DNA of 36,087 bases from Syntrophomonadaceae bacterium (GTDB lineage Bacteria > Bacillota > Syntrophomonadia > Syntrophomonadales > Syntrophothermaceae), in assembly GCA_012719535.1 (NCBI GenBank), contig JAAYAC010000020.1:1-36087 (forward strand). Reading direction: 5' to 3'. The notes below the pieces were generated by a model. It was not told the origin of the DNA and ran no database searches. It saw nothing but the letters and a program-made list of their open reading frames with translations. This document shows, piece by piece, positions 5,263 through 29,000 of this stretch (the first letter of the stretch is position 1; each line of letters starts with the position of its first letter). The position numbers and the translations under genes are program-made.

Positions 5263-5297
5263 CCTGATTACACCTCCTACGGCTATACCGCAAATTT

Positions 5298-5326: not shown

Positions 5327-5349
5327 CCAAGCCAGGACCGCAATATCTC

Positions 5350-5382: not shown

Positions 5383-5431
5383 TGGACCTAATTAATTCTA
5401 TCAGAAGCCTTGTATGGGGTCATGCGCAAAA

Positions 5432-5515
5432 TTATGGATATATTGCTACTTCTCGCGCCAGCCGCCCAACGTCTTTACGCCCGCCAGCCAGAAGCGTCCT
5501 GCCCATATCCTCCAT
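5432..5515 (-). CDS. Possible 27-residue reading frame between lonB and lonA
   Basis: ATG at 5513-5515 to TAA at 5432-5434, reading MEDMGRTLLAGGRKDVGRLA and seven more residues. There is no convincing ribosome binding site: GGAGG is only 2 nt from the second in-frame ATG. I do not recognise it. It could be chance, a leader peptide, or the decayed end of something. It is listed because the rest of 5383-5530 holds nothing else. Confidence 0.15.
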   Translation of the reverse strand: MEDMGRTLLAGGRKDVGRLAREVAIYP

Positions 5516-5530
5516 AATCGATAATCTACT

Positions 5531-6025
5531 TTAAATAACACCGACACCGTGCGCTTGGATCTGGCTGTCCAGATCTCGTTCATAACCGATAATCGAGTGT
5601 GCGAACACGTCGTGTAAATCGTCTACCGGAACGACGGTTATGCCATTAAAGCTATTAAATATCTTCAACCAGTTATCACGAGGAATAATTACTTTTCTAA
5701 TCCCTGCCCGCCGGGCAGCTTCAACCTTGGTCATAATCCCTCCTACCGGTTTAACCTTGCCCAGGACTGAAACCTCACCCGTCATAGCTACCAGTTCGTT
5801 TACTGGCATGTTTTGAATCGCGGAGTATAAGGCAACAGCTACTGCTACCCCCGCTGACGGGCCATCCACTGGAACCCCGCCCGGAAAGTTGAGGTGGATG
5901 TCATAGTCGGCCATATCCAACCCGTGAATCCACCGCAGGGCGGTCATAACGTTCTCTATCGCTCCTTTGGCCATGCCTTTGCGTTTATAGGAACGATTCT
6001 GTCCCCCGAATTGCTCCTCCTCCAC
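5531..6025 (-). CDS. lonB: LonB, C-terminal protease part (separated by an in-frame TAA)
   Basis: 164 residues if translation restarts at the GTG at 6023-6025, nine bases after the TAA of the upstream part and in the same frame. It holds the complete Lon-type serine protease domain: VDGPSAG with Ser57, and Lys100 in GGIMTKVEAARRAG, 43 residues apart as in other Lons. The KRKGMAKG block that normally links ATPase and protease in LonB is present. There is no good ribosome binding site before the GTG. The coding sequence shows no decay, which argues for recent interruption, sequencing error, reinitiation or readthrough. Joined with the upstream part it gives about 553 residues, close to the 552 of B. 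subtilis LonB. In B. subtilis LonB acts in the forespore. Confidence 0.85.
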   Translation of the reverse strand: MEEEQFGGQNRSYKRKGMAKGAIENVMTALRWIHGLDMADYDIHLNFPGGVPVDGPSAGVAVAVALYSAIQNMPVNELVAMTGEVSVLGKVKPVGGIMTKVEAARRAGIRKVIIPRDNWLKIFNSFNGITVVPVDDLHDVFAHSIIGYERDLDSQIQAHGVGVI

Positions 6026-6034
6026 CCCAGTGAC

Positions 6035-7195
6035 TTACCACCGCCCCTGCCCTTTCTTCACCCTAACAGCACACACCTCCACCTCAATCACCCCGCCCTG
6101 GTTGGCCCCGTACACCGCCAGGCCGTTAACCACCCCTACCTGGGGTACATCCTTCGGCTTAAACTCGTAACGAGGGCTGTACCTGCCATTGTTCAGGACT
6201 TTTTCTACCATTTCCAGGGTAATAAGGTCGGAGCCCGCAGTTACAGCCATGCCGCCTGCCAATTGCACGATATTGACCGCTTCACGGCCGTTAACGGCAA
6301 ACCGGGTTATCTCCACCAGCGCCTCCTCTTCGATAACAAAGTTGATCTTCTCTACTGCTTTCCGGGCAATAAGCGCGATCTCTTCCTTTTCCAACGGCCG
6401 GAAGAACACCTCCATACAGCGGGAACGCAGGGCAAGTGGAATCTCTTCTGGCGTTCTGGTGGTAGCCCCGACCAGGCGAAAATCGGCGGGCAGGCCATTC
6501 TGGAAAATATCGTGAATATAAGAGGGTATGTTCTTGTCTTCCTGGCTATAATAGGCACTTTCCAGGTATACCTTTCTGTCTTCCAGCACCTTCAACAGCT
6601 TGTTCATCTGTATGTTGTGCAGTTCCCCAATCTCATCAATGAAAAGAATGCCGCCGTGGGCTTTGGTGACGGCTCCGGGTTTCGGCTGGGGAATGCCGGC
6701 TATGCCAAGTGCTCCTGCGCCCTGGTATATGGGGTCATGCACCGAACCGATCAGGGGGTCAGCAATGCTACGTTCATCAAAACGAGTAATGGTGGCATCT
6801 ATTTCTACGAACTGTGCTTGCGGAGTGAATGGAGAAAGCGGGTTTTTCTTGGCCTGCTCCAGGACCAACCGGGCAGCAGCCGTTTTTCCTACTCCAGGCG
6901 GGCCATATATTATCACATGCTGGGGATTGGGCCCGCAGAGAGCAGCCTTTAAGGCTTCCACCCCCTCCTCCTGACCAATGATATCTTCAAACCTGGTAGG
7001 CCGGGTTTTACTGGACAATGGCTCAGTAAGGGATATGGCGCGCAGCTGGCGCAGTTTATCCCTTTCTTTCTCCGACTCCCGAAGGACCACCGTTCTGGTT
7101 CCACGTTCCTTGCGCAGCAAGTGCCAGAAATATAGCCCAATTATGATGGCAAAAAATACTTGAATTAGATACAAAAGTCCTCCAAGTCCTGCCAA
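6035..7195 (-). CDS. lonB: LonB, N-terminal membrane-anchored ATPase part
   Basis: 386 residues from a TTG start (AGGGTGAG about 7 nt upstream). It closely follows B. subtilis LonB: a membrane segment at about 6-27 (LYLIQVFFAIIIGLYFW), RPTRFEDIIGQEEG, Walker A GPPGVGKT (98-105), Walker B GGILFIDEIGELH, and GATTRTPEEIPLALRSRC. The frame ends at TAA 6035-6037 after KKGQGRW. The next in-frame codons (GTC ACT GGG GTG) continue the LonB sequence as VTGVEEEQFGG, so the stop is a nonsense codon and not a frameshift. As it stands this part would make an ATPase without its protease. It lies downstream of clpX, which has its own terminator, so lonB probably has its own promoter. Confidence 0.92.
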   Translation of the reverse strand: MAGLGGLLYLIQVFFAIIIGLYFWHLLRKERGTRTVVLRESEKERDKLRQLRAISLTEPLSSKTRPTRFEDIIGQEEGVEALKAALCGPNPQHVIIYGPPGVGKTAAARLVLEQAKKNPLSPFTPQAQFVEIDATITRFDERSIADPLIGSVHDPIYQGAGALGIAGIPQPKPGAVTKAHGGILFIDEIGELHNIQMNKLLKVLEDRKVYLESAYYSQEDKNIPSYIHDIFQNGLPADFRLVGATTRTPEEIPLALRSRCMEVFFRPLEKEEIALIARKAVEKINFVIEEEALVEITRFAVNGREAVNIVQLAGGMAVTAGSDLITLEMVEKVLNNGRYSPRYEFKPKDVPQVGVVNGLAVYGANQGGVIEVEVCAVRVKKGQGRW

Positions 7196-7239
7196 TCTCT
7201 GCTCACCCTACCCTTTAAGGTGTTAAAGTGTCTGTAGTT

Positions 7240-7248
7240 ATTATCTCC
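7240..7248 (-). promoter_or_regulatory. Possible forespore (sigma-F/G) -10 element for lonB
   Basis: The minus strand reads GGAGATAAT, matching the sigma-F/G -10 pattern GGnnAnAnT. The expected -35 (GYATA, about 15 nt upstream) is not convincing. B. subtilis lonB is known to be forespore-transcribed, and the clpX terminator separates it from the upstream operon. The assignment is inference. Confidence 0.3.
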
Positions 7249-7281
7249 AAAGCAGCTACTTTGATGAAAACAGGGCGGCAG

Positions 7282-7308
7282 TAAAATAAGGCAGCTGATG
7301 CTGCCTTT
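7282..7308 (-). terminator. Terminator of the tig-clpP-clpX operon
   Basis: 8-bp stem AAGGCAGC (7288-7295) with GCTGCCTT (7300-7307) and loop TGAT. On the minus strand TATTTTAC follows. It lies directly after the clpX stop. Confidence 0.8.
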
Positions 7309-7309
7309 C

Positions 7310-8563
7310 TCAATTAACCCTTCTTTTCGGTTCCACGGTAACTAGCAGGGGTTTTTCCTTTTTAAGGGCCACGTCCCTGGTCACCACACACTTGGTGACA
7401 TCGGCCCGTGAAGGGACATCGTACATTACTTCCAGCATTATATCCTCCAGAATAGCCCTCAAACCCCGGGCTCCCGTATTGCGCCGCATAGCTTCTTCCG
7501 CTATGCCTTTCAGGGCATCCTCGGTAAATTCCAGGGCCACCCCGTCCATATCAAACAGCTTTTGATATTGGCGCACCAGGGCATTCTTTGGTTCGGTCAG
7601 AATTCGGATCAGCGCCTGCTCATCCAAAGCCTCCAGGGTCACAATGATTGGCACCCGGCCTACGAATTCGGGTATCAAACCAAATTTCAGGAGGTCTTGG
7701 GGTAAAATCTGTTCCAGAATCTCACCGATCTTCTTCTCTTTGCGGCTCTTGATATCGGCCCCAAACCCTATGGCTTTCTGGCCAATGCGTTGCTGGATTA
7801 TCTTGTCAATACCCTCGAAAGCACCCCCGCAGATAAACAGTATATTGCTGGTATCAATTTGAATGAACTCCTGGTGCGGGTGCTTTCTTCCCCCTTGAGG
7901 AGGAACACTGGCAATAGTTCCCTCCAGTATCTTGAGTAGAGCCTGTTGCACCCCTTCCCCGGAAACATCACGGGTTATCGAGGGATTATCCATCTTACGG
8001 GCAATCTTGTCAATCTCATCAATGTAGACAATACCTTTTTCAGCTTTCTCGATGTCATAATCAGCAGCCTGGATAAGTTTCAGCAGAATGTTTTCCACAT
8101 CTTCGCCAACGTAACCCGCCTCCGTCAGTGAGGTCGCATCCGCTATGGCAAACGGGACATTCAATATCTTGGCCAGTGTCTGGGCGAGTAAAGTCTTGCC
8201 ACTTCCTGTCGGCCCCAGCATTAGAATATTACTCTTTTGCAGTTCGACATCGTCCAGCCTTGTACCCAGGTTAATGCGCTTGTAATGGTTGTACACGGCG
8301 ACAGCCAGAATCTTCTTGGCCTTTTCCTGTCCAATTACATACTGATCCAGTATCTCCTTTATTTCCTGGGGCTTGGGTATATCTCCCATCTCAAACCCGA
8401 AATCTTCAGCCAGTTCTTCCTCGATAATCTCGTTACACAGTTCAATACATTCATCGCAGATATACACTCCGGGGCCTGCTACCAGCTTTCTGACTTGATC
8501 CTGGGTCTTGCCACAAAAAGAACACTTCAATTGCCCTCTTTCGTCACTGCTGTATCTCTGCAT
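7310..8563 (-). CDS. clpX: ATP-dependent Clp protease ATP-binding subunit ClpX
   Basis: 417 residues, ATG start with GGGAGGTGAGG directly upstream. ClpX is the AAA+ unfoldase that feeds substrates to ClpP. Visible in order: N-terminal zinc-binding domain with Cys14, Cys17, Cys36 and Cys39; Walker A GPTGSGKT (117-124); the GYVGEDVEN pore loop; Walker [12 protein letters not shown]; the GRKHPHQEF (RKH) loop; the IGFGAD loop that docks on ClpP; and sensor-2 [10 protein letters not shown]. All elements are intact. The gap to clpP is 23 nt, and the operon ends in the terminator just downstream. Confidence 0.98.
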
Positions 8564-8586
8564 GACCTCACCTCCCTCAACAACGG

Positions 8587-9189
8587 CTACCGCTTCACCC
8601 CACGTTTGGATTCATAAAAGATCTCATCAATAATCCCGTAGGTCTTAGCTTCCTCAGCGGTCATAAAGTAGTCCCGTTCCACATCTCTCGCCACTTTTTC
8701 CAGTTTTTGCCCGGTCCTTTCCGCCAGTATCTCATTTAAACGCTTCTTCAAACCCATTATACGCCGTGCATGAATTTCAATGTCAGTAGCCTGGCCTTGA
8801 GTTCCTCCAGATGGTTGGTGGATCATTATCTCGCTATTGGGCAGTGCAAATCTTTTGCCCTTAGCCCCAGCCGCCAGGAGAAAAGCACCCATGCTGGCGG
8901 CCATGCCTACGCAAATCGTGGAAACGTCTGGTTTCACATACTGCATGGTGTCGTATATGGCCATTCCAGCAGTGATCGAGCCGCCTGGACTATTGATGTA
9001 GAAGTGGATGTCTTTGTCAGGGTCCTCGGCTTCCAGGAACAGGAACTGGGCAATGATGAGGTTGGCCACCTGGTCATCCACGGGGCTGCCCAGGAATACA
9101 ACCCGGTCTTTCAGTAGCCGGGAATAAATGTCATAAGCTCTTTCGCCCCGATTGGTCTGCTCCACAACCATAGGTATCAAATAAGACAC
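8587..9189 (-). CDS. clpP: ATP-dependent Clp protease proteolytic subunit ClpP
   Basis: 200 residues. The GTG at 9187-9189 is chosen because GAGAGGTG lies 6-7 nt upstream and the protein then begins [20 protein letters not shown], the usual ClpP N-terminus. An upstream in-frame start at 9219 would add ten unsupported residues. The catalytic triad is Ser99 (GMAASMG), His124 (MIHQPSGG) and Asp173 (VERDYF). ClpP forms the 14-subunit peptidase chamber served by ClpX. Genes upstream (tig) and downstream (clpX) are on the same strand with short gaps, the usual tig-clpP-clpX order of Clostridia. Confidence 0.97.
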
Positions 9190-9267
9190 CGTTTTCACCT
9201 CTCGTTCCAATAGTAACAATACAGTAAGAGTCTATCATCCAGCCCTGTCTTTCAACTATACCATATA

Positions 9268-10593
9268 CTATTCTTCAACTGCCAATTCCGGTTTTTCAAC
9301 CGGTTTATCCAGGACAACGGCTTTTTCCACCAGGTATTCCACAGCTTTATCCAGTAGTATGCCCCGCTCAATCCTGGCCCTTGACCCCGCCACTCGCTTC
9401 TTGACCTCATCAACATTCATACCAAAGTCACCGGCAACCTTGTTCATCTGCTGTTCAAAATCCTCATCAGTGACCTTTATATTATACTGTTCAGCAACCT
9501 TTTCCAGCACCAGATTGTTACGGACGATTCTTTCGGCCTGGGGCCTGTATTCCTCTTTCAGATCCTCCACCGTGGCCCCGGTCATTTCCAGGTACTGTTC
9601 AAGGCTGATTCCCTGATAGAGTAATCTCTCCTGAAACTGCTCCAACATAACATCAACCTGGTTTTCTATCATATCCCGGGGAATGTCTACTTCCGCAGAA
9701 TCAGCCGCTTTGGCAATCAATTCATCCTTCATCATCTGCCGGGCACGCTGCTCTGCCATTTCGACCAGGTTCTTACGAATATCTTCCCGTAGTTCCTCAA
9801 GAGTCTCAAACTCACTTACTTCCTGAGCAAACTCATCATTTAACGGGCTCAACTCCCTGCGTTTGGCTTCTTTGATCTTGACTTTGAACAGCGCTTCCTT
9901 TCCGGCGAGGTCCTTGGCGTGATAATCGTCTGGAAAGCGCACGGTTATTTCTCTTTCTTCACCAACTCTGGCGCCGACGAGTTGTTCCTCAAAACCGGGA
10001 ATAAAGGTCTTCGAACCCAACTCGAGGGAATAATCTTCACCCTTTCCCCCGGGGAAAGGCTCGCCGTCTATGTACCCTGCAAAGTCAATAGTAAGTACGT
10101 CCCCTTCTTTGGTTGGTGTGTCATCTCCGATTTCTACCAGCTTGGCATACCGGTCTCTCATAACCTGCAGTCGGCGTTCTACATCTTCCTCTTTCACCTC
10201 AATGGGCGGCCGGGATACTTCAATCCCTTCCACCTGCCCCAGAATTACCTCCGGTTTAACCACTACCCTGGCAGTGAAAATGAGCGGCTTACCCTCTTCC
10301 ATCTGCACTACGTCTATGGCAGGCTGGCTTACCGGTTCAATATCGTTTTCCTCTACGGCTTGTTCATAGGCGGCAGGTATGACCTGCTCCAGGGCATCTT
10401 CATAGAGGATTTCCTTACCGTAGTAGGCCTCCAGAACCGGTCTGGGCACGCGTCCCTTCCTGAACCCGGGTACTGTCACCCTCTGGGCGACCTTCTTGAA
10501 AGCTTTGTCCAGAGCTTCCGCGACCTTTTCCTCTGGGACCTCAATTTCCAAAGCTACCTCATTCTTCTCTATTCTTTCCAGCTTGGATTTCAT
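9268..10593 (-). CDS. tig: Trigger factor (ribosome-associated chaperone and prolyl isomerase)
   Basis: 441 residues, ATG start with GGGAGGAA 7 nt upstream. Trigger factor binds ribosomal protein L23 at the peptide exit tunnel and shields nascent chains. The ribosome-binding signature VPGFRKGRVPRPVLE is at about 41-55. The FKBP-like prolyl isomerase domain is about residues 155-240 (GDVLTIDFAGYIDGEPFPGG, FIPGFEEQLVGARVGEEREI). The helical C-terminal chaperone arms occupy the rest and end in an acidic tail. First gene of the tig-clpP-clpX group, 78 nt before clpP. I did not find a clear promoter in 10594-10751. Confidence 0.97.
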   Translation of the reverse strand: MKSKLERIEKNEVALEIEVPEEKVAEALDKAFKKVAQRVTVPGFRKGRVPRPVLEAYYGKEILYEDALEQVIPAAYEQAVEENDIEPVSQPAIDVVQMEEGKPLIFTARVVVKPEVILGQVEGIEVSRPPIEVKEEDVERRLQVMRDRYAKLVEIGDDTPTKEGDVLTIDFAGYIDGEPFPGGKGEDYSLELGSKTFIPGFEEQLVGARVGEEREITVRFPDDYHAKDLAGKEALFKVKIKEAKRRELSPLNDEFAQEVSEFETLEELREDIRKNLVEMAEQRARQMMKDELIAKAADSAEVDIPRDMIENQVDVMLEQFQERLLYQGISLEQYLEMTGATVEDLKEEYRPQAERIVRNNLVLEKVAEQYNIKVTDEDFEQQMNKVAGDFGMNVDEVKKRVAGSRARIERGILLDKAVEYLVEKAVVLDKPVEKPELAVEE

Positions 10594-14828: not shown

Positions 14829-16571
14829 CTATTTCTGTAACACTGCAAAAAAGGCCAGCAGTTTGGCGATCAGCAGAGCTTCGTAGTTCTGGTAGGAATA
14901 AGCCGGATCCCCGCGCAGGTCTTCCAGTTGTGAGGCGAACGTCTCCAGTGCCTTGTACCGTTCACCGTCCAGTTCGAGGATGCTCGACACCATCTGCTGC
15001 TGGCGTGCCAGTGCCTGCTGCCAGAGCTGCCCGGCAGGCGTGTCCCCAGGCGATTCCAGCCCTTCTCCCCCATCAAGGCTGGTTTTCAGGCAAGAAGCAG
15101 GCAGGTCGAGGTAGATGTCCACTTCGTCCCCCGGCACGTCCTCCCGCCGCTGGCAGGTATCAAGCACCAGCGACTCGGTATCCGTCCTGATCTCCCCGGG
15201 CTCGTCCCCTTCACCTGCTTCCCCCTGGTACATCCTGAACCTCACCAGTCCCTGCTCCCGACCCAGGTTGTAAGCCGAATCACACGGGACAGAGAATATG
15301 CGGTAGGTTTTGCTGGGGTCCAGCTCCAGGTTGGCCGTATCAAAAGGCACCGGCTCCAGGGTATTTGTGTCGGCTTTCCCCGGCGCTCTCTTTTCGATAT
15401 AGAAGCGAAAAGGAACAATGCCCTTCATTTGCGGGCCCGTCTCCCGGCCCTGGGGGGCACCCAGGTAACTGAGGCCCTTTACGACATAGAATTCGGGTTC
15501 GGGGGGAAGCCAGATTTCCGTTCCTATTTCCGCCATAACAGTCTTAACACCTTTAAGGCGGGCCGAACCGCCCATGAGCACCACCAGGTCCAGGTCATAA
15601 CCGTTCTTGCCATATAACCCTAATTGCCGGGCCCTGGGCTTTACCCGGGCCTCCAGAAATTGCCGCAGGCTGGCCAGGGTGTTTTCCAGGGCAGAGGCCA
15701 GTTCCTCCTCCGTGAGGTCCAGACACAGGGAGCGACCTTGGTAAAAATCGGGAAGGTCGACCCGCACATGCCCTCTCCGGTCTATTTTTAGTTTGATTTC
15801 CTCGGCCCAGCCGAGCATCCTGGCATATTGATATTCCTCTTCCGGGCTCATTCCCTTCTCCTCCCGAAAGACGGCCGGGATGTGCTGGCCGGTCTGTAGC
15901 TCGAACCGGGGAAAAAGAACGTGGCGCAAAATGGCTCTATCCACCTCCGAGCCGCTAAAGGCATCACTGCCGGCATGGAGCTGGGCTTCCAGAGTCATCC
16001 CGGTACCGGTACCCCGAGATACATGCACAAAACTTACATCAGCAGTCCCTCCCCCGATATCCACCACCATTATGTCACCGGAAGGAAGCGGCTGTCGCGC
16101 CGGTTCCCTCTCCTGCCACAGGCCGGCCAGGGCCGCCAGGGGCTCCAGCACCAGCCTGACGGGGGTGGCGGGAAAAGCCCGGCAAGCAGCTTCGAGCACC
16201 ACCCGGCGGGCTTTCAACCCGAAATAGTTCGGAACACAAATGGCTACCGAGGTAACCTCCTTCATTTGGCCTGCCACGTACTCATCGCGGACATACTCCA
16301 AGAAGTAAGCCAGAATATCGGGTAGACGGTAGGGGCCCAGACGGTAGCCGGGGTTTCTCTTAATCTCGATCTTGAAGAACTTCCCCACCCGCATACCTGT
16401 CTCGCGGAGATTAGCCGCCGCGGCGCCGAAATACAAGCGTCCGGTGCGTGGGACATAGGCAGCCACGGTAGGGATCATGCTCTCTGCTCCCACCAGGTTT
16501 ATGAAAGCTCCTGTCTCCTCCAGCATGCCTATCTTGGTGTAACTGGTTCCCAAGTCTATTGCCAGGTTCAC
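14829..16571 (-). CDS. Hsp70/actin-fold ATPase with a non-standard C-terminal half
   Basis: 580 residues, ATG start. The actin-type nucleotide pocket is complete: phosphate-1 AIDLGTSYTKIG (residues 4-15), connect-1 LEPLAALAGL (142-151), phosphate-2 MVVDIGGGTADVSF (168-181) and adenosine motif VVLMGGSARLKGV (330-342). After about residue 375 the sequence does not look like the DnaK substrate domain. A region with beta character and many acidic residues (about 383-500) is followed by a helical tail (about 515-580), and there is no DnaK-type lid or EEVD end. It is the last gene of a minus-strand operon with the helical proteins upstream; the gap to the preceding gene is 6 nt. The role is unknown. 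Assembly or remodelling of a partner complex is an inference from the fold. Confidence 0.9.
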   Translation of the reverse strand: MNLAIDLGTSYTKIGMLEETGAFINLVGAESMIPTVAAYVPRTGRLYFGAAAANLRETGMRVGKFFKIEIKRNPGYRLGPYRLPDILAYFLEYVRDEYVAGQMKEVTSVAICVPNYFGLKARRVVLEAACRAFPATPVRLVLEPLAALAGLWQEREPARQPLPSGDIMVVDIGGGTADVSFVHVSRGTGTGMTLEAQLHAGSDAFSGSEVDRAILRHVLFPRFELQTGQHIPAVFREEKGMSPEEEYQYARMLGWAEEIKLKIDRRGHVRVDLPDFYQGRSLCLDLTEEELASALENTLASLRQFLEARVKPRARQLGLYGKNGYDLDLVVLMGGSARLKGVKTVMAEIGTEIWLPPEPEFYVVKGLSYLGAPQGRETGPQMKGIVPFRFYIEKRAPGKADTNTLEPVPFDTANLELDPSKTYRIFSVPCDSAYNLGREQGLVRFRMYQGEAGEGDEPGEIRTDTESLVLDTCQRREDVPGDEVDIYLDLPASCLKTSLDGGEGLESPGDTPAGQLWQQALARQQQMVSSILELDGERYKALETFASQLEDLRGDPAYSYQNYEALLIAKLLAFFAVLQK

Positions 16572-16577
16572 GTTTTT

Positions 16578-18233
16578 CTACTCCCTCATACCAACTACTA
16601 CATAAGGGATCTCCCACCTGGCGAGGCCGTCGACCTCCACCCGGAAGATGTCCCCTCTTTCCTCCAGCACAGTAAGATGTCGTTCCTCCGGTACCAGTCT
16701 TCGCTCAATGCCGCCCTGTTCCAGGAGGTGGCAGCAACCTTCCGGAAACTTCCGCCCTCTTTGCAGGGGGTAACGCTCAACCTCCACCGTTATAGCTTTC
16801 CAGCAACGGTGTAGGGTGCGGGGAGACAATAATAGGCCGGTATCATCCTGCAGGTTGGCAAATGCCTCCTTGTAACCCCGCAAGAGGTCGTACAACTCGC
16901 GATACCTGTCAAGCTCCTGCAAGGAAGCATCCAATCTGTCCCGAAAATAGGTGAACTTTACCCAGAACAACGCCAGCCCGCTCAGGGTTTCCCGCAGGCT
17001 GGTTCCCAGGCCACCAAGGCTATAATAGGCCCGGGCTGCAACACGCTTGCGCAGTTCCCTTTCATAGCGGTCTAAAGGTTCACCTACCAGCCGTTCCAAC
17101 TCCGCGGGGCTCAGGTTCTGGCCATGTTCCAGCCTGTCCATACACGCTCCCAATTCCCGGGCGAACTCCCGCAGCAAACGACCCACCGCTTCAACTTCCG
17201 CAAGGTTCAACTTGCCTAGCTGCCGGGCATCCTTTATCATCTCCCGACAGGGGACAACGCTCTCCAGTTCCATTATTCCGGTAAGCAAAGACAGAATTCC
17301 AGACAGGTAGTCCTTCAGGCATCCAAGGGCTTGCACGGACCGCTCCGGTACCGTATGCTGCAGGGTCTCGAGTTCCAGAAGCAGCTGGACCCTTTCCGCC
17401 TGGGCTTGCACCCGGGGACCCAACCCCAGCTGGACAAAGCCGGCCCAAGAGGCAGGCAGGCTGGGGGGTGTGACCATAGTGCCCGTAACCGCCTTTCTTA
17501 CCCGGTCCTGAATTACGTGTGGGGAAAGATGGCTGGCTTCAGCTATAACCACCTGAAGGGAATCAATACTCCAGGCCATGCTGGCCAGCCACCGACTCAC
17601 CGCATCCCGAACCCGCGCATCCCAAGTACCGGGCTCGTCTTCGCCCCAGCGAGCCAGAAGTTCTTCCAGGTCGCGGTCTTTCCGGGCTGTCTCCCACCAG
17701 CTTGGAGTGGCCAGCACCTTTTCCAGGTGTCCGAACCAGTCAGCCAGCCCGGTTACCTGGCTCCTGAGTTCCCGCAGGGCCTGGCAAACATCATGGTGAA
17801 CCTGCATCCGCCCGTTTTCCAGCCCAGCAAGCCGGGTGCCCACCTCCTGGACCAGGTCTTCCAGCACCCGGTTGAAATCCTTCAGGCGGTTGAACAATTG
17901 GGCATAGCGGATCAGGTTGTTGGCTATGTCTTCCCTAACCGTCTCCTCCTGCCGGCTGACTTTGAAAATTCTTGCCGTCTCGCGGTTGACATCCGCTCGG
18001 TAGGCAGGAAACAATTGCTCGTGGAAGCTACGGTAGTAAAACGAGTTGACCGCGTACAAGTAATCCTCGAGGAAAACAGCATACCGGTCACTACCGACGT
18101 TGTCTTCTCCGTCGCCCGCTGGCGGCAGGTGGTCGGCCGTATACTCCTCCACTCGCTGCCGCGTTTTCTCCAGCAGCTGTTCCAGAAGCTCCAGGTACCG
18201 GTCCTGAAGCATGGAGATGTTGTCGTCTATCAT
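16578..18233 (-). CDS. Large helical partner protein of the Hsp70-like ATPase, family unknown
   Basis: 551 residues. The start ATG overlaps the stop of the preceding frame (TAATG), so the two are coupled. It is almost entirely predicted helix, with long heptad-like charged stretches (YLELLEQLLEKTRQRVEEY near the start, DRYRELYDLLRGYKEAFANL later) and no membrane segment or signal peptide. The last ~45 residues (RRLVPEERHLTVLEERGDIF, then WEIPYVVV) look beta-rich and faintly recall the small C-terminal domain of GrpE (V.VL..GY....LRPA.VVV). With an Hsp70-like ATPase six bases downstream, a nucleotide-exchange or adaptor role is conceivable but unproven. I do not recognise a family. Confidence 0.75.
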   Translation of the reverse strand: MIDDNISMLQDRYLELLEQLLEKTRQRVEEYTADHLPPAGDGEDNVGSDRYAVFLEDYLYAVNSFYYRSFHEQLFPAYRADVNRETARIFKVSRQEETVREDIANNLIRYAQLFNRLKDFNRVLEDLVQEVGTRLAGLENGRMQVHHDVCQALRELRSQVTGLADWFGHLEKVLATPSWWETARKDRDLEELLARWGEDEPGTWDARVRDAVSRWLASMAWSIDSLQVVIAEASHLSPHVIQDRVRKAVTGTMVTPPSLPASWAGFVQLGLGPRVQAQAERVQLLLELETLQHTVPERSVQALGCLKDYLSGILSLLTGIMELESVVPCREMIKDARQLGKLNLAEVEAVGRLLREFARELGACMDRLEHGQNLSPAELERLVGEPLDRYERELRKRVAARAYYSLGGLGTSLRETLSGLALFWVKFTYFRDRLDASLQELDRYRELYDLLRGYKEAFANLQDDTGLLLSPRTLHRCWKAITVEVERYPLQRGRKFPEGCCHLLEQGGIERRLVPEERHLTVLEERGDIFRVEVDGLARWEIPYVVVGMRE

Positions 18234-18559
18234 TATCGCACCCCCAGCAGGTTGCTTATTACCGCCTCCAGGGCGTCGAGGTTACCCTTGGCCCTGGCCA
18301 GGTCAGCTTTTTCGCGGTAGAACTCCAGCACCTTTTCCCGGCTCTCCGTAGCCCACCGAAGTACTCGGGCCGCCTCCCGTCGCGGGGATTCTGCCAGACC
18401 GGGTGCCAGGGTATCCAACACGACCTGGCTGAAGAATACATGTGAAGGAACCCAGTGCCACAGATCCAGGTAACCCTGCAGTATGCCCTCACTCACCTGG
18501 GAGGAACGACTTTCCGTGTGACCCGTAGCCAACAGCCAGCGGAGGAATTCCAGAATCAT
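18233..18559 (-). CDS. Small helical protein, or the continuation of the upstream gene past a TAG
   Basis: 108 residues if it starts at the ATG at 18557-18559, which has no visible ribosome binding site. The frame stays open upstream for another 23 codons (18560-18628), coding KPDFVVLLRVVRERLQPRPH and beyond, right back to the TAG that ends the 363-residue gene. It is in the same frame as that gene. The extra stretch looks coding and resembles the end of the upstream protein (FVAVLRNISREV against FVVLLRVVRERL). So this is either a separate gene with an unusual start, or the C-terminal quarter of one 495-residue protein split by a nonsense or readthrough codon. It ends overlapping the 551-residue gene by one base. 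Confidence 0.55.
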   Translation of the reverse strand: MILEFLRWLLATGHTESRSSQVSEGILQGYLDLWHWVPSHVFFSQVVLDTLAPGLAESPRREAARVLRWATESREKVLEFYREKADLARAKGNLDALEAVISNLLGVR

Positions 18560-18628
18560 CAGGGCTTCATGTGGGCGGGGTTGGAGTCGCTCCCGTACTA
18601 CGCGTAACAGAACGACAAAATCGGGCTT

Positions 18629-19720
18629 CTAGACCTCCCGGGATATATTCCTCAGCACCGCCACAAAACTGTCACCGGGCCGGAAGGCTTCGACCTGCTC
18701 ACAGAATGCCGTGATTTCAGCCTGGGGAAATATCCACGGGGTGCTGCTGACTTCCCTCCATTTTTCATAAAAACGCAAGTACTCCAGGGAAGCCGGGTCG
18801 GGGGTAAGGTTGGCTAGTACTTCCCGGTAAATCTGCTCCGCCTCCCGAGCGGGCTCCAGTGGGAAGGTCACCAGGCAGTAGGCAGGAACCACGGCGCGCG
18901 CCAGGCGGTCCATTTGTCGGTATAACTCCATGGCCTGCCCCGGCTCTGCCAACCTGCTCCTGGCCATAAAGTCCTGGTAGATTTCTACCAGCAGCACCAA
19001 ACAGTCTTCGAGCCATCCCAGGCGGTACAGGTCACCGGCTGCTTCCATGAATCGCAGGAAGCGCTCGTACCCATACGGGTGTTCCCGGCCGCGGACCGCA
19101 GTTTCACGCAAACTGGCCAGGGTCTTCCTGGCCAGGTCAACTTTATTGCCAAACATGTTATCCCACCCACCGATACGGATAACCTCCAGTTCCAGTCCCA
19201 GATTCTCTTGCCTGCGGCTGGTAATCAGCTGTTGGCGCCGGTTTCTTAACAAGCGCCGGAATTCGGGATTGCCGGTTCGACCCGTCAGGTACTCGAGCTC
19301 CTCGAGGCTGAGCACGGCCAGTACCTTGGAGTAAGCAGCCTCCAGGGAACTGTCGTACAGGTTGATGAGGAAATCCAGTTTTTTCCCCGGAAGTTCCGGT
19401 AGAAGGTAGGGAAGCTGCTCCAGAAAATCAATCTTTACCCGCAACGGGCAGGACCTGAGCCAGCGTATAACCGGCATGGAACCGGAATTGGCCAGCAGGT
19501 ACAGGTAAAACCAAACGCGTTTCCCCGTCATGAAAAGGGTTCTAAACAGGAAATCGAGTGTGGCGCGATCCGCTTTCAGTGTGGCCAGTTCCTGCCAGCC
19601 TGTGACTGTTTTTCGGAGTTGCTTTCGGTTTTTCAGTTCTGCCTGCCAGAAAACAAAGACATCCGTGCCCGGGTTACCGGCTTCAAGCCCGGCCGTCAAC
19701 GGCAAAAAATCGCGCGGCAT
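18629..19720 (-). CDS. Helical protein of the Hsp70-like operon, family unknown
   Basis: 363 residues, ATG start with AAAGGGGGG 8 nt upstream. First gene of the operon. It is mostly helical and resembles a repeat-helix scaffold in overall look (LARKTLASLRETA, YLRFYEKWREV), but I can name no family and see no catalytic motif. Leu, Arg and Glu are frequent, and there is no signal peptide or membrane segment. It ends at a TAG (18629-18631) that is followed in the same frame by open coding-like sequence. The GGGAGGT just before the stop would suit a start about 10 nt downstream, but no in-frame start codon is there. Upstream is a pair of 24-bp direct repeats. Confidence 0.75.
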   Translation of the reverse strand: MPRDFLPLTAGLEAGNPGTDVFVFWQAELKNRKQLRKTVTGWQELATLKADRATLDFLFRTLFMTGKRVWFYLYLLANSGSMPVIRWLRSCPLRVKIDFLEQLPYLLPELPGKKLDFLINLYDSSLEAAYSKVLAVLSLEELEYLTGRTGNPEFRRLLRNRRQQLITSRRQENLGLELEVIRIGGWDNMFGNKVDLARKTLASLRETAVRGREHPYGYERFLRFMEAAGDLYRLGWLEDCLVLLVEIYQDFMARSRLAEPGQAMELYRQMDRLARAVVPAYCLVTFPLEPAREAEQIYREVLANLTPDPASLEYLRFYEKWREVSSTPWIFPQAEITAFCEQVEAFRPGDSFVAVLRNISREV

Positions 19721-19991: not shown

Positions 19992-20038
19992 TAGAATAAG
20001 CTTTAATCGATATGAATTCCAGGTTGGTGGGGATACGA

Positions 20039-21001
20039 GTGGATAATGTTACTCACGGACTCGTTGGTCTGGTAACCTCCGGACTACTACCCCATACCAT
20101 GCGACCGGCACCGGACACCGGGGAAAGAAAAGCCCTGCTCTGGGCAGGTCTGAGCGGCTCCGAGGTACCCGACATCGACATTCTGTACCGCCTGGGCGGG
20201 GAAATGTCTTACCTGAACCTGCATCGGGGCCTGACCCATTCTCTGGGAGCTATAGCCCTGTTTACCCTGGTCCTAACCCTGGGAATAAAGCGTTTCTACC
20301 CCGAAGCCCGTGTCTCCCGAATTGGGTCCGTGGCCGGCCTGTCCGTCGGGCTCCATGTATTTCTGGATCTCCTGACCTCCTACGGGACCATGATTTTCTA
20401 TCCTTTTAACCTCACCCGTTTCGCCCTGGACGTATTACCGATCGTAGATGTCTACCTAGTCGGCCTGCTGATATTGGCCACCGCACTGCTCTTCACCGGT
20501 CTGCGCAACCCACGGGGGGCAACCTGGGTGGTGGTCTTAATCACCCTTTATCTTTCCGCCCGGGCCGGATCCCACTGGTACTCGTATCAAAAGGTGACCG
20601 CCAGTCAGCCCCTGGGAACATACAGCCAAACCGGGGTCTTTCCTGACTTCCTGAACCCGCTGCGCTGGCAGTTTGTGGTCAAAACACCGGATAAGTATAT
20701 CATAGGCGAAGTTGCCGTAAACGGACCCGTGCGGGCAACCCGCGAGCTTCCCATTCAACCTCCTAACAGTCTCACCCGGTCGATGCTACAGACTCCGGTC
20801 GCTCGCGTTTTTCTTGACTTTGCCCGCTACCCCTATGTCACGTGCCAGCAGGATTCAGGTTACACCACGGTCCTCATTTCGGACCTGCGTTACCAGCATC
20901 ACGGTTATAACTATTTCGTGGCGTATATCAGAACGGACGGAAAACGACAGGTCATCTCCAGCGGGCTGAATCCTTCACCCGTAGAAGACCAGGTTCAGTA
21001 G
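20039..21001 (+). CDS. Membrane-bound YdjM-type (metal-dependent hydrolase) protein
   Basis: 320 residues from the GTG at 20039, with GGTGGGGA 5-6 nt upstream. This gives the start (V/M)DNVTHGLVG, the usual family beginning. An in-frame ATG at 20012 lacks a site. Family marks: VTHGLVGLVTSGLL, PDIDILYRLGG, LHRGLTHSLGAIALF and GLHVFLDLLTSYG, with His and Asp residues that may bind metal. About four to five membrane segments lie in the first 190 residues, followed by a ~130-residue soluble tail. Many YdjM members have no tested function. The last 27 nt overlap the convergent unknown gene. Confidence 0.85.
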   Translation: MDNVTHGLVGLVTSGLLPHTMRPAPDTGERKALLWAGLSGSEVPDIDILYRLGGEMSYLNLHRGLTHSLGAIALFTLVLTLGIKRFYPEARVSRIGSVAGLSVGLHVFLDLLTSYGTMIFYPFNLTRFALDVLPIVDVYLVGLLILATALLFTGLRNPRGATWVVVLITLYLSARAGSHWYSYQKVTASQPLGTYSQTGVFPDFLNPLRWQFVVKTPDKYIIGEVAVNGPVRATRELPIQPPNSLTRSMLQTPVARVFLDFARYPYVTCQQDSGYTTVLISDLRYQHHGYNYFVAYIRTDGKRQVISSGLNPSPVEDQVQ

Positions 21002-21664
21002 CCGGCAAGCATTTTCGGTCTTAAACGGCACCGCCTCGGTAAGGTATACCAGAAAATAGAAGGATTTCTCCCGGTTGGTATATATTCCGGCCAACAGGTC
21101 ATCACCTTGTACTTTAAACCGGTCTATTTTGGCCTTGTTGCGAGTAAGATACCGCACAGTAGCCAACCGGGTAATAAAAGGGTACCGGGCCAACCGGGTA
21201 AAGTGCTGCTTCAACCCCCACTCCTTATTGGCGTTTCCCGCTTCGTACACCAACACCGGTTCCCCTTCCCGGGCCCGGGGAAGCCCTCCCTCCGCCACCC
21301 GGCCGCGGCTTACCCAGTCGAGGATATCTCTCAACCTCTCCGGTTCCAGAAATTCACCGTACTCCGCCCGGAGATAGTCCCTGAAACGGGGCGGGAAGCT
21401 GCTGAGCGGTAACCGCCCTCGCTGCAGAGCTGCCGCCGTGGCCGGGTTGGCCATGATGAACTCCACCAGATCCGCCCGGTCGACCGGAAAACGCGAAAGG
21501 CAAACTCCATAATCCCGTTCCAGAATTGCACCGTAATTCTCGTAGAATACCCGGTAGGAGTTTCCTTCCCCTGCCCGTAGTTCCTCGATATAGTTTAAGA
21601 GACGTTCGTATTCCCCTGCATCCAGGGTAACATGGCCCGCTATTTTTCTCAATACAGCCCTCAT
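20975..21664 (-). CDS. Hypothetical protein, family not recognised
   Basis: 229 residues, ATG start with GGGGAGAAGG 5 nt upstream. It is soluble, with no signal peptide or membrane segment. The N-terminal half is helical and charged (DAGEYERLLNYIEELRAG). A middle stretch has aromatic and arginine residues (RFRDYLRAEYGEFLEPERLR). The C-terminal part looks beta-rich (REKSFYFLVYLTEAVPF). There is one Cys near residue 55 and one near the C-terminus. No motif I can name. It converges with and overlaps the YdjM-type gene by 27 nt. A weak -10-like region lies in 21721-21745, but I found no clear promoter. Confidence 0.65.
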   Translation of the reverse strand: MRAVLRKIAGHVTLDAGEYERLLNYIEELRAGEGNSYRVFYENYGAILERDYGVCLSRFPVDRADLVEFIMANPATAAALQRGRLPLSSFPPRFRDYLRAEYGEFLEPERLRDILDWVSRGRVAEGGLPRAREGEPVLVYEAGNANKEWGLKQHFTRLARYPFITRLATVRYLTRNKAKIDRFKVQGDDLLAGIYTNREKSFYFLVYLTEAVPFKTENACRLLNLVFYG

Positions 21665-21786: not shown

Positions 21787-23031
21787 TCATCTTACCACAA
21801 TCGGCTGGCTGGACAGTCCGACATGTTCCACGGTGAAGTCCGCTTTTACGTCGACTTTGAGGGCCGGAAAGATTTGCCTCCAGTTGCCTTGCAGTTCCTT
21901 CCAGACCTCGGGTTGGGAGAGGTGAAGCCGGTTCCCAAAGCCAAAGACATCGGAGTTCAACTCCTGGCTCCTGGCTACCGCCCGGCGACAGAGACGCTCG
22001 ACCTCCCGGTTCACCAGGTTTTCCAGCTTGTGCAGGTCCTGCTCATTCACCCGGATCAGGGCGCTGGACTGTTCCCGTAAATCTCCTGTTCCACTAATTC
22101 TCACTTTCATGACTATGCCGTCGTCGGTAACCAGTGGTTCAACTTTGGCCCGCACCTTACGAAAGACAAAAGAGGTGTTCTTCTCGGGACTATCAAAAGC
22201 CACTGTAATAACCCCTTCGTTAGCCTGGTTTTTTATAAACAACATGCCCATGGTTTCGTCCTCATTCAGCCAGCCGACCAGCCGGTCGCCGGAAAACGCC
22301 GCGGCGCCTGCCATTTCCACTATTCTGGTTTGGGACTGTCTCCCGGTCCCCCCCGGGCTGGTCGTTAATCCTACCTGGCCTGCGGAAGAAACCGCCTCCG
22401 GTGGGACGATAGTTCTCAACCGGGGTACCACTACATCCTTGCCGGGGGTCAATAAATCGTGGGCTACCTGGCGCAGATCGGAACGGGGAACCTTAGAACC
22501 CGAGGGGCTGCTTTTTTCGATTATGTTTCGGATCTCACTGGAGATCAATGTTTCAAATTCGGGTTGTGCCTGAAGGGCATTCAGTGCCCTCCCCTCGCAG
22601 ACCACCACCCAGGTGCGCAGGCGAATGTCCCCGTGGCGCAGGGCAATATCCATGAACTGGGCAATGCCGTCCCGGGCCAGTTCCTCGCCCACCACCATCA
22701 CCAGGACGTGGCCGGCGAAGAATTGACGGGAGGAACGCGTGGTCCAGTCTCTCACCGCGTTAAAGATGGTGTCGCCCGTTGTAGTTACCAGGTCTCCCGA
22801 CGGCGAACTGGGCCGCTGCATGGTCGCCGCTCCGCCTCCTCCCCCGGCAGGCCTTGTCACCAGCATACTGATGCGGAAAGCAGGTTTGCCGTTCAACTCC
22901 ACCCGGTCAAAGCCCAAAGCGGTATTGACAACCATGTCGTTTACCTCTCTCCGGTTCCAGCAACCCGTCGCGGTCAGGGGCAGTAAGGTGATGAGGAGCA
23001 GGAGTATGGCCCGCTTATATATCGCCGCCAT
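21787..23031 (-). CDS. gerC: Spore germination receptor lipoprotein subunit (GerAC/GerBC type)
   Basis: 414 residues, ATG start with AAGGGGGGG 7 nt upstream, overlapping gerB by 17 nt. A lipoprotein signal runs to Cys24 (LPLTATGCW). After it comes the family start CWNRREVNDMVVNTALGFD. The GerC fold follows, with PVNREVERLCRRAV-like helices near the C-terminus (LVNREVERLCRRAVARSQELNSD) and the final strand DFTVEHVGLSSQP. The protein sits on the outer face of the inner spore membrane. It is the third gene of gerA-gerB-gerC. The sensed nutrient cannot be told from sequence. Confidence 0.93.
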   Translation of the reverse strand: MAAIYKRAILLLLITLLPLTATGCWNRREVNDMVVNTALGFDRVELNGKPAFRISMLVTRPAGGGGGAATMQRPSSPSGDLVTTTGDTIFNAVRDWTTRSSRQFFAGHVLVMVVGEELARDGIAQFMDIALRHGDIRLRTWVVVCEGRALNALQAQPEFETLISSEIRNIIEKSSPSGSKVPRSDLRQVAHDLLTPGKDVVVPRLRTIVPPEAVSSAGQVGLTTSPGGTGRQSQTRIVEMAGAAAFSGDRLVGWLNEDETMGMLFIKNQANEGVITVAFDSPEKNTSFVFRKVRAKVEPLVTDDGIVMKVRISGTGDLREQSSALIRVNEQDLHKLENLVNREVERLCRRAVARSQELNSDVFGFGNRLHLSQPEVWKELQGNWRQIFPALKVDVKADFTVEHVGLSSQPIVVR

Positions 23032-24127
23032 GGTGCGTCCCCCCCTTGTGTCTTAACACTGCGGCGAGCAAAACCAGGGCGGGAAGCAGCAGTTCAAAAG
23101 TGTAGGCATAGAAGGGAAAAAAACCGGTTAGAAGATTTACCGTTTGCAGGTAAGTCCCGTAAAAAACCTCACTGATCACAATGCTGGTTATCGCAACTGG
23201 GATTATCGCTGGTTTATAGCTTTTCAATCCCAGTGTGGTTGCTGCAGCGATACTGGCCGTATGATAAAAGACCGCCAGCTTCACGATTACCCCTCCTATC
23301 CACATGATTACCAGCAAGATTTCCATGCGTTGCAGGATATCCGCCACTGAAATGTACTGGGCCAAATTGAACACTGGAAAAACCAGGCGCGAGGTCAGTG
23401 GCGCGCCAAAAACCCCTATGGTGGTGGCTGTGACCGTCCCGGCGAGAAGCCCCACCAGAACAACCACCATTATCGCCGACGGCAGGGCCTCCTCCTTTTG
23501 GTTAAGGTAGGGAAAAAGCATGAGTATGACAAATACTTCTCCCCGCCAGGCAGCGGGAACCATACCACCCCTGACCATTGGTACCAGCCCATTCTCCAGC
23601 ACCGGTTTTAGATTGTCAATACTCACCTCCCTGGCCACCAGGGTGACCAAGATCACAAAAGAAAGTACAAATACCACAAAGACCAGTTCGTTCTGGCGGG
23701 CAATGACCTCGATGTCCAGGTAAACCCCATAGGCGGCCGCCCCTGCCAGTACCAGGGCCAAAACCAGCACGGGGGTATCTCGCAAAAATGCGGTATGTAT
23801 AAACTGCGTACCCTGGGTCAAGATCAGGGAGTTTACATGGGCAAAGAAAAAGGTGTAGGCTGCGGCCAATAGTTTGCCGGGGAGCCACCCCAGAACCTGC
23901 GGCAGGTACCCGGTAAAAACCTGCGCGGGAAACCGCCGGGCCAGGGCCACACATACGGTTGCCACCAGCAGGCCGTAGGCGGTGGCCGGCAGCAGGACAG
24001 CCATCCAGCCGTCGGGCCCCGCCGTGCCGGCGGTGACGGCGGGAACAATTAAGAATACCGTGGCGATTTCCGCCATGGTGACCACTAGGACCAGTTGCAC
24101 GCTGCTGATGCGACCGTTATCCAGCAT
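23015..24127 (-). CDS. gerB: Spore germination receptor permease subunit (GerAB type)
   Basis: 370 residues. The ATG directly follows the TAG of gerA. It is an APC-type integral membrane protein with about ten hydrophobic segments and begins GRISSVQLVLVVTMAEIATV, as GerAB proteins do. GerB subunits are thought to bind the nutrient germinant or form the channel of the receptor. It overlaps gerC by 17 nt. Length and layout are normal for the family, and I see no break. Confidence 0.94.
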   Translation of the reverse strand: MLDNGRISSVQLVLVVTMAEIATVFLIVPAVTAGTAGPDGWMAVLLPATAYGLLVATVCVALARRFPAQVFTGYLPQVLGWLPGKLLAAAYTFFFAHVNSLILTQGTQFIHTAFLRDTPVLVLALVLAGAAAYGVYLDIEVIARQNELVFVVFVLSFVILVTLVAREVSIDNLKPVLENGLVPMVRGGMVPAAWRGEVFVILMLFPYLNQKEEALPSAIMVVVLVGLLAGTVTATTIGVFGAPLTSRLVFPVFNLAQYISVADILQRMEILLVIMWIGGVIVKLAVFYHTASIAAATTLGLKSYKPAIIPVAITSIVISEVFYGTYLQTVNLLTGFFPFYAYTFELLLPALVLLAAVLRHKGGTHHGGDI

Positions 24128-25729
24128 CTATCTTTTTCCTCCTTTGGGTCCGCGAGCCGGGGTCATTCTCGAAGGTGGGGCCGGTTGCAGGTCGCTGTTC
24201 TGTCGCTCCGGCTCCCGGTAGCCGGTTAACCTCGGCCGGAGGCGCATCATCCAGGCCGGTACCCGCACGAAAGTATCCTTCAGGTCACCCAGGCTGTGCG
24301 GTGCCAGGGGGGACAGGTAGGGTACGCCAAAACTGCGCAGAGCACAGAGGTGAAACACCAGGACGGAAAACCCTGTCGCTACCCCGAACAAGCCCAGAAA
24401 CGCCCCCGCCAGCATGAAGGGAAACCTGAGTATGCGGACAGTATTGGAAAGAGTTACTGAGGGTATGGTGAATGATGCAATCGCCGTAAGGGCAACCACG
24501 ATGACCATAACCGGGGATACCAGCCCGGCGCTGACTGCCGCCTGGCCGATCACGATAGCCCCAACTATACTTATGGTCTGGCCGAAGGGACGGGGCAAGC
24601 GTACCCCTCCCTCCCGCAGCACCTCGAAGGTCAACTCCATCAGCGCCGCCTCCACCAGGGCGGGAAAAGGTATCCCTTCCCGGGCCACAATAATGGAAAA
24701 GAGCAGGGAAGGAGGTATCAGTTCCTGGTGGAACGTAGAAATGGCGATATAGAATGCTGGACCTAGCAGGGCGGTAAGCAAAGACCCCCAGCGGAGTATC
24801 CTGATCATCGAGGCAAACCAGTAGCGATTGTAGTAGTCTTCAGGCGATATTACCTGACTGGCCAGCATGGTCGGGACAACTAAAGCAAAAGGAGAGTTGT
24901 CCATTATCAAGCCTGCTTTCCCTTCCAGTAGCTGCGCTGCCAGGTTGTCCGGCCGCTCAGTGGCAGCAACCGTACTGAAAGGGGAGTACGGGTTATCATC
25001 TATATACTCCTCAACCTGCCCGCTGCCGAGAATACTGTCAACCTTGATGCGCTGTATCCGGGAGTAGATCTCCTCAACCAGGCCGCTGGCCACGTAACCT
25101 TTCAGGTAAACCAGGCAGGCACTGGTCTTGGTTGCCTCTCCAAGTTTCAGGTTTTCCACCGCCAACCGGGAGGTTTTCAGTCGCTTGCGCAGCAGGGCGA
25201 TATTGGTGCGCAGATCCTCGTTGAAGGCGTCCGCAGGGCCCCTGACCACGGTTTCGGTGGTCGGCTGGTTCACTCCCCGGCTGTTGTCCTCCAGAATGCT
25301 TATTAAGAGCACTGTGGGCTCGCCTTCCACGAACAGGCTTATATACCCCCCACAGATATTCTCCGTGATCTCAACCCAACGGTTCTCTTCGCGCATTCTA
25401 CCAAGAGGGATAACCTCTTGTTGCAGCCAGGCCATGGTCACCCCCGGGGGAAGGTCCTGTTCGGCCTGGAGAAAACGCAGCAAGCCCTGCTGTAAATGCT
25501 GGTAATTCACCAGCGAGTCGATAAAGGCAATCATTGCCGGCTTCTGGTGCGCGATCATGAATTCATGGATTACCAGGTCACCGGCACGGTCAAAGACCTC
25601 CTGCAGTACGCTTTTGTTACCGGCAAGGGTACTGGTCACCGTACGGTTTTCGTCTGGCGGTTCAACCTCCCACCGGTCTCGCAGTGGCACCAGGGTATAG
25701 CCCCGGCGTCCGCGCCGCAGAATCCTCAA
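24128..25729 (-). CDS. gerA: Spore germination receptor subunit GerAA type
   Basis: 533 residues from a TTG start set by GGGAGGA 6-7 nt upstream. A large N-terminal soluble region (about 1-310) precedes about five membrane segments and a basic C-terminal tail. Family marks: DLVIHEFMIAHQKPAMIAFIDS, LRRRL-type helices (NIALLRKRLK), GLIMDNSPFALVVPTML and EDYYNRYWFASMIRILR. GerA works with GerB and GerC in the inner membrane of the spore to trigger germination. First gene of the operon, divergent from the export operon. The spacer has TGCATA (minus strand, 25822-25827), like a forespore sigma-G -35, but I see no matching -10. Confidence 0.95.
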   Translation of the reverse strand: MRILRRGRRGYTLVPLRDRWEVEPPDENRTVTSTLAGNKSVLQEVFDRAGDLVIHEFMIAHQKPAMIAFIDSLVNYQHLQQGLLRFLQAEQDLPPGVTMAWLQQEVIPLGRMREENRWVEITENICGGYISLFVEGEPTVLLISILEDNSRGVNQPTTETVVRGPADAFNEDLRTNIALLRKRLKTSRLAVENLKLGEATKTSACLVYLKGYVASGLVEEIYSRIQRIKVDSILGSGQVEEYIDDNPYSPFSTVAATERPDNLAAQLLEGKAGLIMDNSPFALVVPTMLASQVISPEDYYNRYWFASMIRILRWGSLLTALLGPAFYIAISTFHQELIPPSLLFSIIVAREGIPFPALVEAALMELTFEVLREGGVRLPRPFGQTISIVGAIVIGQAAVSAGLVSPVMVIVVALTAIASFTIPSVTLSNTVRILRFPFMLAGAFLGLFGVATGFSVLVFHLCALRSFGVPYLSPLAPHSLGDLKDTFVRVPAWMMRLRPRLTGYREPERQNSDLQPAPPSRMTPARGPKGGKR

Positions 25730-26996: not shown

Positions 26997-27701
26997 ATGG
27001 AATATGTGGTAAGAGTTAGCGGTTTAACCCAGTGCATCGCTGATGAAATTGTGCTGGATAATGTAAATTTCCAGGTTGACGCGGGTAAACTGTTTATTCT
27101 TTTTGGTTACTCCGGATCCGGCAAAACGACTCTCATTTCCATTCTGGCCGGGGTACAGGCATACAAGTCCGGCACGGTGGAGGTATGCGACCGGCGGGAT
27201 ATCGGCCTGGTAACTCAGCAATACAGCCTGTTTACTCACCTCACCGTGCAAGAAAACCTGCAAGCCATCGGAATGATGAAGGGTATGTCCCCGCAGGAAC
27301 TGAACCACCGCGTCCCTAGTGTGGTAGAGGCCTTGCAGCTGGAAAACGCTTTGCGCCACCGGGCCGGCCGGCTACCCTGGGGGGCCCAACAGAGGCTGGC
27401 CCTGGCCTGTGCCATACTAAACAACCCAAGGCTGCTGCTGGTTGATGATATTCTATCCCGGGGGGATCCTGAATCCACCGAGGTAATAGTGAGGTCCACC
27501 AGGGCACACGTAGCGCAAGGCAATACCTGTATCTGGGCTACCGGCCGCTTGCCCGAGGTCTTTGACCTGGCTGCCAGTGACCACGTCGAAATCGGCCTTC
27601 TCGTGAAAGGCAATCTGACCGTACACCAACCGCAGGAATTCGCCGCACTGATGCAGGACCGCACTCCGCAGCACCTTAAGAGGAACGGTGATACAGTTTG
27701 A
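26997..27701 (+). CDS. ABC transporter ATP-binding protein with degenerate motifs
   Basis: 234 residues from ATG 26997 (GGTGGGTG 6 nt upstream; an in-frame GTG at 26988 is less likely). Walker A GYSGSGKT (37-44) and the Q-loop (Gln74) are intact. The rest is not canonical. The signature LSGGQ is LPWGAQ (126-131), Walker B ends in Asp150-Asp151 followed by ILSRGDP instead of DEPTSGLDP, and the H-loop reads WATGR with Gly183 where His is expected. Compared with YbhF or RbbA, which carry two ATPase domains in one chain, this operon codes only one, and it looks like a weakened half. It lies between the adaptor and permease genes; its stop overlaps the permease start. Confidence 0.9.
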   Translation: MEYVVRVSGLTQCIADEIVLDNVNFQVDAGKLFILFGYSGSGKTTLISILAGVQAYKSGTVEVCDRRDIGLVTQQYSLFTHLTVQENLQAIGMMKGMSPQELNHRVPSVVEALQLENALRHRAGRLPWGAQQRLALACAILNNPRLLLVDDILSRGDPESTEVIVRSTRAHVAQGNTCIWATGRLPEVFDLAASDHVEIGLLVKGNLTVHQPQEFAALMQDRTPQHLKRNGDTV

Positions 27702-28915: not shown

Positions 28916-29000
28916 CCGGGGTCCTAATGGGAATGCGTTAGGGTGATTCATATTCTTCGGCGTTTGTCTGTGTCTTGAATAGCCTTCGGAGGGTGAGACG

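Follow-up and report, generated by a model that had tools for sequence, protein, structure and literature searches.

The window analysed here, a stretch of 36,087 nt, carries on its minus strand the gene of an Hsp70-like ATPase (C) that is tightly coupled to genes of proteins of no known family. In the first-pass annotation, this ATPase was regarded as the centre of a candidate undescribed machine for remodelling or assembly, served by dedicated helical partners. The question raised by the locus is what the ATPase contributes to such a gene set, and whether the other proteins in fact depend on it.

A conserved set of four genes

The gene set runs in the order X, A, B and C, by position from 21664 to 14829, and comprises the following features:

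20975..21664, minus strand: gene X, 229 aa, no known family
18233..19720, minus strand: gene A, 496 codons including the final stop, a single frame with one TAG inside, no known family
18629..18631, minus strand: in-frame TAG of gene A, separating a 363-aa from a 108-aa ORF, at a poorly conserved position
16578..18233, minus strand: gene B, 551 aa, helical, with a beta domain at the C-terminus
17712..18092, minus strand: long helix of B (residues 48-174), predicted as a single helix of 127 residues
16587..16796, minus strand: beta domain of B (residues 480-549, about 483-549), predicted by AlphaFold2
14829..16571, minus strand: gene C, 580 aa, Hsp70-like ATPase
15447..16571, minus strand: nucleotide-binding domain (NBD) of C (residues 1-375), Hsp70-type, with all pocket motifs
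15717..15959, minus strand: IIB stretch of C (residues 205-285), deleted in 16 of 39 homologues
14832..15425, minus strand: C-terminal domain of C (residues 383-580), predicted as seven strands with a short tail of helices behind them

The operon proposed in the first-pass annotation was borne out, with the gene order constant in all 21 loci compared and median gaps of 11, -1 and 5 nt for X-A, A-B and B-C, respectively, i.e., the genes mostly overlap or nearly touch. The coupling described for the window, a 6-nt gap between B and C and a 1-nt overlap between A and B, proved exact in both figures. Between X and A, the window has 1,254 nt occupied by a gene for a YdjM-type membrane protein on the opposite strand (20012-21001, plus strand), which is not there in relatives. 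Gene X lies outside the stretch considered in the first pass (14829-19720) and had been overlooked; clustering of neighbouring ORFs placed it immediately upstream of A in every locus, as a protein of about 230 aa in relatives and the best conserved of the four (38-61% identity).

Where one or two further helical proteins had been expected beside B and C, there is one gene, A: the 363-aa ORF (18629-19720) and the 108-aa ORF (18233-18559) share a frame and are parted by a single TAG, and the gene is one ORF of 435-517 aa in all 20 relatives, for which reason both ORFs are regarded as one gene. Translation of the TAG as pyrrolysine was rejected, since homologues have no conserved residue at this position and no pyrrolysyl-tRNA synthetase (PylS) of the window's genome reaches the family cut-off; the TAG is accordingly either a normal stop codon or an error of the assembly. 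A second split gene A, apparently due to a frame change, occurs at L071:3099-4558 (minus strand; genome G062:C10).

X, A and B matched no family in Pfam (searched with alignment members including relatives), NCBIfam, PHROGs, PADLOC or PDB, and PDB profile searches with the three proteins gave nothing beyond unspecific helical matches. A J-domain in X, A or B was dismissed because the HPD motif is absent from all of their homologues examined. As regards other genes at these loci, the gap between B and C is 579 nt in the S. wolfei locus L042 (7868-8446), where it holds a small ORF, and 0-120 nt in other relatives. Eight of 20 relatives have, downstream of C, a gene for an unnamed protein of 267-285 aa (e.g., L036:7872-8675, L037:10584-11441, L050:4365-5180); it had no match in Pfam or NCBIfam and is a possible fifth component.

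Distribution and genomic context

The lineage named in the first pass, Peptococcaceae, was wrong: the gene set belongs to the class of Syntrophomonas, Syntrophothermus and their kin. Among 63 genomes of this class, 49 gave a match to B (searched with an alignment), 48 to X and 46 to the C-terminal domain of C. X and B were concordant in 58 of the 63 (Fisher p = 1.4e-8), and in the five discordant genomes the contig ends at the locus, with part of A still lying beside the gene that was found. When 398 sampled genomes of the phylum were searched, neither X nor the C-terminal domain of C had a match outside the order, and B had one weak helical match there (5.9e-5). The set is carried by nearly all genomes of most genera, always in one copy and in the same order. 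All parts are missing from the five genomes of family f2 and from genera g9, g10, g18 and g25; in G044 (87% complete), C alone was detected, which suggests that some absences are assembly gaps. The carrier loci come from Syntrophomonas and Syntrophomonadaceae, one metagenome-assembled genome labelled Gelria and two labelled Firmicutes or Bacillota. A first scan of genome contigs with C alone had returned no match. G005 encodes the Swol_0384 peptides of S. wolfei (PMC9676460), and the gene set lies a few kilobases from Swol_0384; the literature search yielded nothing on the system or on the presumed S. wolfei locus tags. The proposal of an undescribed gene set survived both the search for known families and the survey of co-occurrence. 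The four-gene system is real, undescribed and clade-restricted.

The neighbours of the set are gerA and rhomboid genes in the window and, in most relatives, an acyl-CoA dehydrogenase gene, HdrABC-like genes and NlpC/P60. Since the neighbours of the window differ from those of most relatives, the gene set appears to stand alone; the surrounding genes also vary from family to family. A link to sporulation was rejected, as Spo0A is found in 59 of the 63 genomes and also where the system is missing. Likewise, a link to PHA synthesis was rejected, as two family members with the system and the genome of the window itself lack the synthase, which several genomes without the system possess.

The surroundings hold further genes of note. 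A gerA-type spore germination operon (GerA, spore permease and GerAC; 21787-25729, minus strand) adjoins X in the window, and such an operon is also beside X in the same-family relatives L031 and L032. A proteostasis cluster lies near the operon (2926-10593, minus strand), with trigger factor, ClpX and Lon recognised by Pfam and a ClpP-sized ORF between ClpX and trigger factor. Two tandem, paralogous genes for ABC-2 type membrane permeases are found at 27698-30161 (plus strand). Near the system in relatives, L034:17374-18732 (minus strand) has a partial match, below cut-off, to the cyanobacterial hormogonium morphoprotein TftA (2.7e-29).

Proteins C and B and the decay of C

Comparison with Pfam matched C to HSP70 at 3.8e-15 and to MreB at 1.2e-8, profile-profile comparison aligned its NBD with the DnaK NBD of relatives at 99.7% probability, and its best PDB matches were DnaK-type chains. 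Every pocket residue checked is there (D6, G8, T9, P114, R122, E143, D171-GGG-T176, D178 and the adenosine GG), in agreement with the complete actin/Hsp70 pocket read in the first pass. In addition, hhalign and MAFFT placed a Lys at the position of the catalytic DnaK-K70, and C carries the proline-switch Pro and Arg. The NBD features by which membership in Hsp70 was judged, namely the phosphate-1, phosphate-2 and adenosine motifs and subdomain IIB, are all found in the window's C but not in 16 of 39 homologues. C shares with Hsp70 proteins such as DnaK and HscA the full pocket, the catalytic-type Lys and the proline switch, and its C-terminal part is likewise predicted as a beta domain with helices after it. 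By contrast, it lacks the hydrophobic interdomain linker of the DVLLLD type (the linker is variable in the 16 homologues compared), no J-protein or GrpE partner was found for it, its NBD is wrecked in many homologues, its helical tail is short and its C-terminal domain is beyond sequence recognition.

Modelled from 38 sequences, this C-terminal domain (mean pLDDT 86.2, pTM 0.65) shows seven strands followed by helices. Its four best PDB fold matches among 350,542 chains were all Hsp70 substrate domains or Hsp70s, with E-values of 0.024-0.54 and TM-scores of at most 0.28; a viral fold library gave no Hsp70 match. In sequence comparisons with the DnaK substrate domain, hhalign gave 0.3%, and neither a PDB profile search nor alignment scores against shuffled sequences pointed to similarity; a substrate-domain identity found no support at the level of sequence, the PDB fold search being the one source of this hint. 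From the predicted fold, the domain is probably a strongly diverged Hsp70 substrate domain. The earlier description of this half of C as unlike the DnaK substrate domain is accordingly correct by sequence and perhaps incorrect by fold.

The AlphaFold2 model of B (39 sequences, mean pLDDT 86.6, pTM 0.62) consists of the 127-residue helix, a helical body and the C-terminal beta domain, which agrees with the helical protein with a beta-like end described before. A conserved N-terminal block lies inside the long helix (N63, Y66, Y67, F70 and N115), and in the beta domain G527 and P543 are invariant and D528 nearly so. The best PDB fold matches of B were generic long coiled coils (MukB elbow, 1.2e-3). 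The operon contains neither DnaJ nor GrpE, as had been stated, and canonical GrpE and DnaK are encoded elsewhere in the same genome (G000:C188). The faint GrpE likeness that had been seen in the end of B did not withstand comparison: the GrpE profile gave a probability of 0.9% for full-length B and 0.5% for its C-terminus, with 0.2% for protein A as negative control, Pfam GrpE had no match among 20 B homologues, and the 50 top-ranked PDB fold matches listed for B included no GrpE. Moreover, B is kept with its beta domain in lineages that lack IIB or any C. Although B resembles GrpE in its predicted long helices and small C-terminal beta domain, it is three times longer, is without profile or fold match and outlasts both IIB and C. 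Identity of B with GrpE is rejected on the strength of the profile comparison, the fold search and these lineages.

The comparison set of 39 C proteins comprises 22 intact ones, one (L117) in which IIB is kept but the phosphate-2 loop is broken, and 16 without IIB and most pocket residues. The C-terminal domain is present in all degenerate homologues of this set, with P387 and F410 kept in 16 of 16, which fits the view that it is the part of C needed longest. On the maximum-likelihood tree of B, the loss of IIB requires five changes, bootstrap trees require four to five, and well-supported branches force at least three, counts which rest on a long-branched tree; we take these changes as losses because the regain of a deleted subdomain is unlikely. 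The dN/dS values of pocket-less C were 0.26 and 0.29 (two pairs, one further pair being saturated), near the 0.16-0.28 of intact C, which means that these are not pseudogenes. In G047 and G053, two draft genomes of one genus, no C-terminal domain was found in the genome, and the gene after B is that of an acyl-CoA dehydrogenase in the opposite orientation (cluster 6 of relatives); there, X, A and B have dN/dS values of 0.12-0.20, and the C-terminal motif of B is kept. G051 has no match to the C-terminal domain either, yet a diverged C-like ORF follows B.

That X, A and B outlive C overturns the view in which the ATPase is central and the other proteins are its dedicated helpers. Since C is degenerate or absent while X, A and B stay under purifying selection, X-A-B appear to be the core, to which C is an accessory subunit. 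Alternatively, the recurrent loss may reflect a C that has been marginal from the start and outside the assembly.

Possible roles of the gene set

A machine of the DnaK-DnaJ-GrpE type, in which C would act as Hsp70, B as a very large exchange factor akin to GrpE and A or X as J-protein or client, would be in line with the intact pocket of C with its catalytic-type Lys and proline-switch residues, with the broadly GrpE-like predicted layout of B and with the fold matches of the C-terminal domain to Hsp70 substrate domains. Nevertheless, we consider it improbable in view of the GrpE profile result for B, the lack of HPD motifs in X, A and B homologues and the missing hydrophobic linker in C. Furthermore, Hsp70 exchange factors work by rotation of NBD subdomain IIB (PMC10825016), yet lineages devoid of IIB or of C retain B with its beta domain, for which reason B is unlikely to be primarily an exchange factor. 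The chance is similarly small that C is a reactivase-type ATPase comparable to those of diol dehydratase or glutamate mutase, and X-A-B an enzyme complex in which it replaces the damaged cofactor. Several systems do use actin-fold ATPases as reactivating factors, the anaerobic hosts are rich in radical and Fe-S chemistry, and 3 of 19 C proteins weakly match Pfam MutL (GlmL-like; best 0.0011). Those matches fall on the shared phosphate-2 motif, though, no enzyme family was matched by X, A or B, and X-A-B survive the loss of C.

MreB-like proteins and reactivases such as DdrA and GlmL resemble C in being actin-fold ATPases with dedicated partners, but the sequence of C is clearly nearer to Hsp70 and the partners are unrelated. 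That C forms filaments in the manner of MreB or ParM, with X-A-B as cytoskeletal adaptors, is very improbable: C does match MreB (1e-8) and a phage partition protein family (1e-4), but its Hsp70 matches far surpass that to MreB, the long coiled coils among the top fold matches of B are unspecific, and pocket loss would end polymerisation, yet the rest remains. We give hardly any credence to an anti-phage defence or conflict system around an Hsp70-like protein, for which the coiled-coil nuclease tandems offer a precedent, since some CoCoNuT restriction systems hold Hsp70-like NBD/SBD units, fused to the McrB GTPase or McrC and with nucleases alongside (PMC11090510). The link of an Hsp70-like unit to coiled-coil or helical proteins is common to both, but X-A-B-C is without McrB GTPase, McrC or nucleases. 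Furthermore, the best PADLOC matches of X, A and B were no better than 0.04, that of C (1.1e-4) came via the shared ATPase fold, no nuclease or toxin was recognised, and the patchiness typical of defence was not seen in a set so constant in carriage, copy number and order.

The explanation that we prefer, although we rate its probability somewhat below even, is that an undescribed assembly has X, A and B as its obligate core and C as an Hsp70-derived accessory that was once ATP-driven and later became dispensable. Following this, we propose that this assembly of several proteins would be fixed as a trait in the class of Syntrophomonas and Syntrophothermus, and that C would dock onto the core via its C-terminal beta domain. 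The ancestral C may have assembled, remodelled or switched the core by an ATP-driven cycle of its NBD; in several lineages this cycle would have become dispensable, with pocket and IIB lost and C remaining as a binding subunit, and one genus would have dispensed with C entirely. The physical complex, the docking by the C-terminal domain and the remodelling role are what we infer from this pattern, and our best guess for C is a chaperone-like regulator of an assembly made up of X, A and B. The Hsp70-derived ATPase with dedicated partners is the known side of the system, and the families X, A and B are its new side; as these have no known kin, a categorically new machine is possible.

The class that carries these families includes Syntrophomonas wolfei and Syntrophothermus lipocalidus, and three conserved families without described kin, found in nearly all of its sampled members, would be among the more constant unknowns of syntrophic butyrate degraders. 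The graded series of C, from intact through a broken phosphate loop and the lack of IIB to the absence of the gene, with partners that remain under selection, is a natural experiment on what an Hsp70-type ATPase adds to a complex and when it is dispensable. A bolder reading, which we hold to be rather unlikely, is that of a categorically new, clade-defining machine of syntrophic fatty-acid degraders, which recruited an Hsp70 as an ATP-driven subunit, lost the ATPase of this subunit in about five independent events and in the end did without the subunit altogether. If true, the lineages would offer a natural series for a chaperone-dependent assembly turning chaperone-independent.
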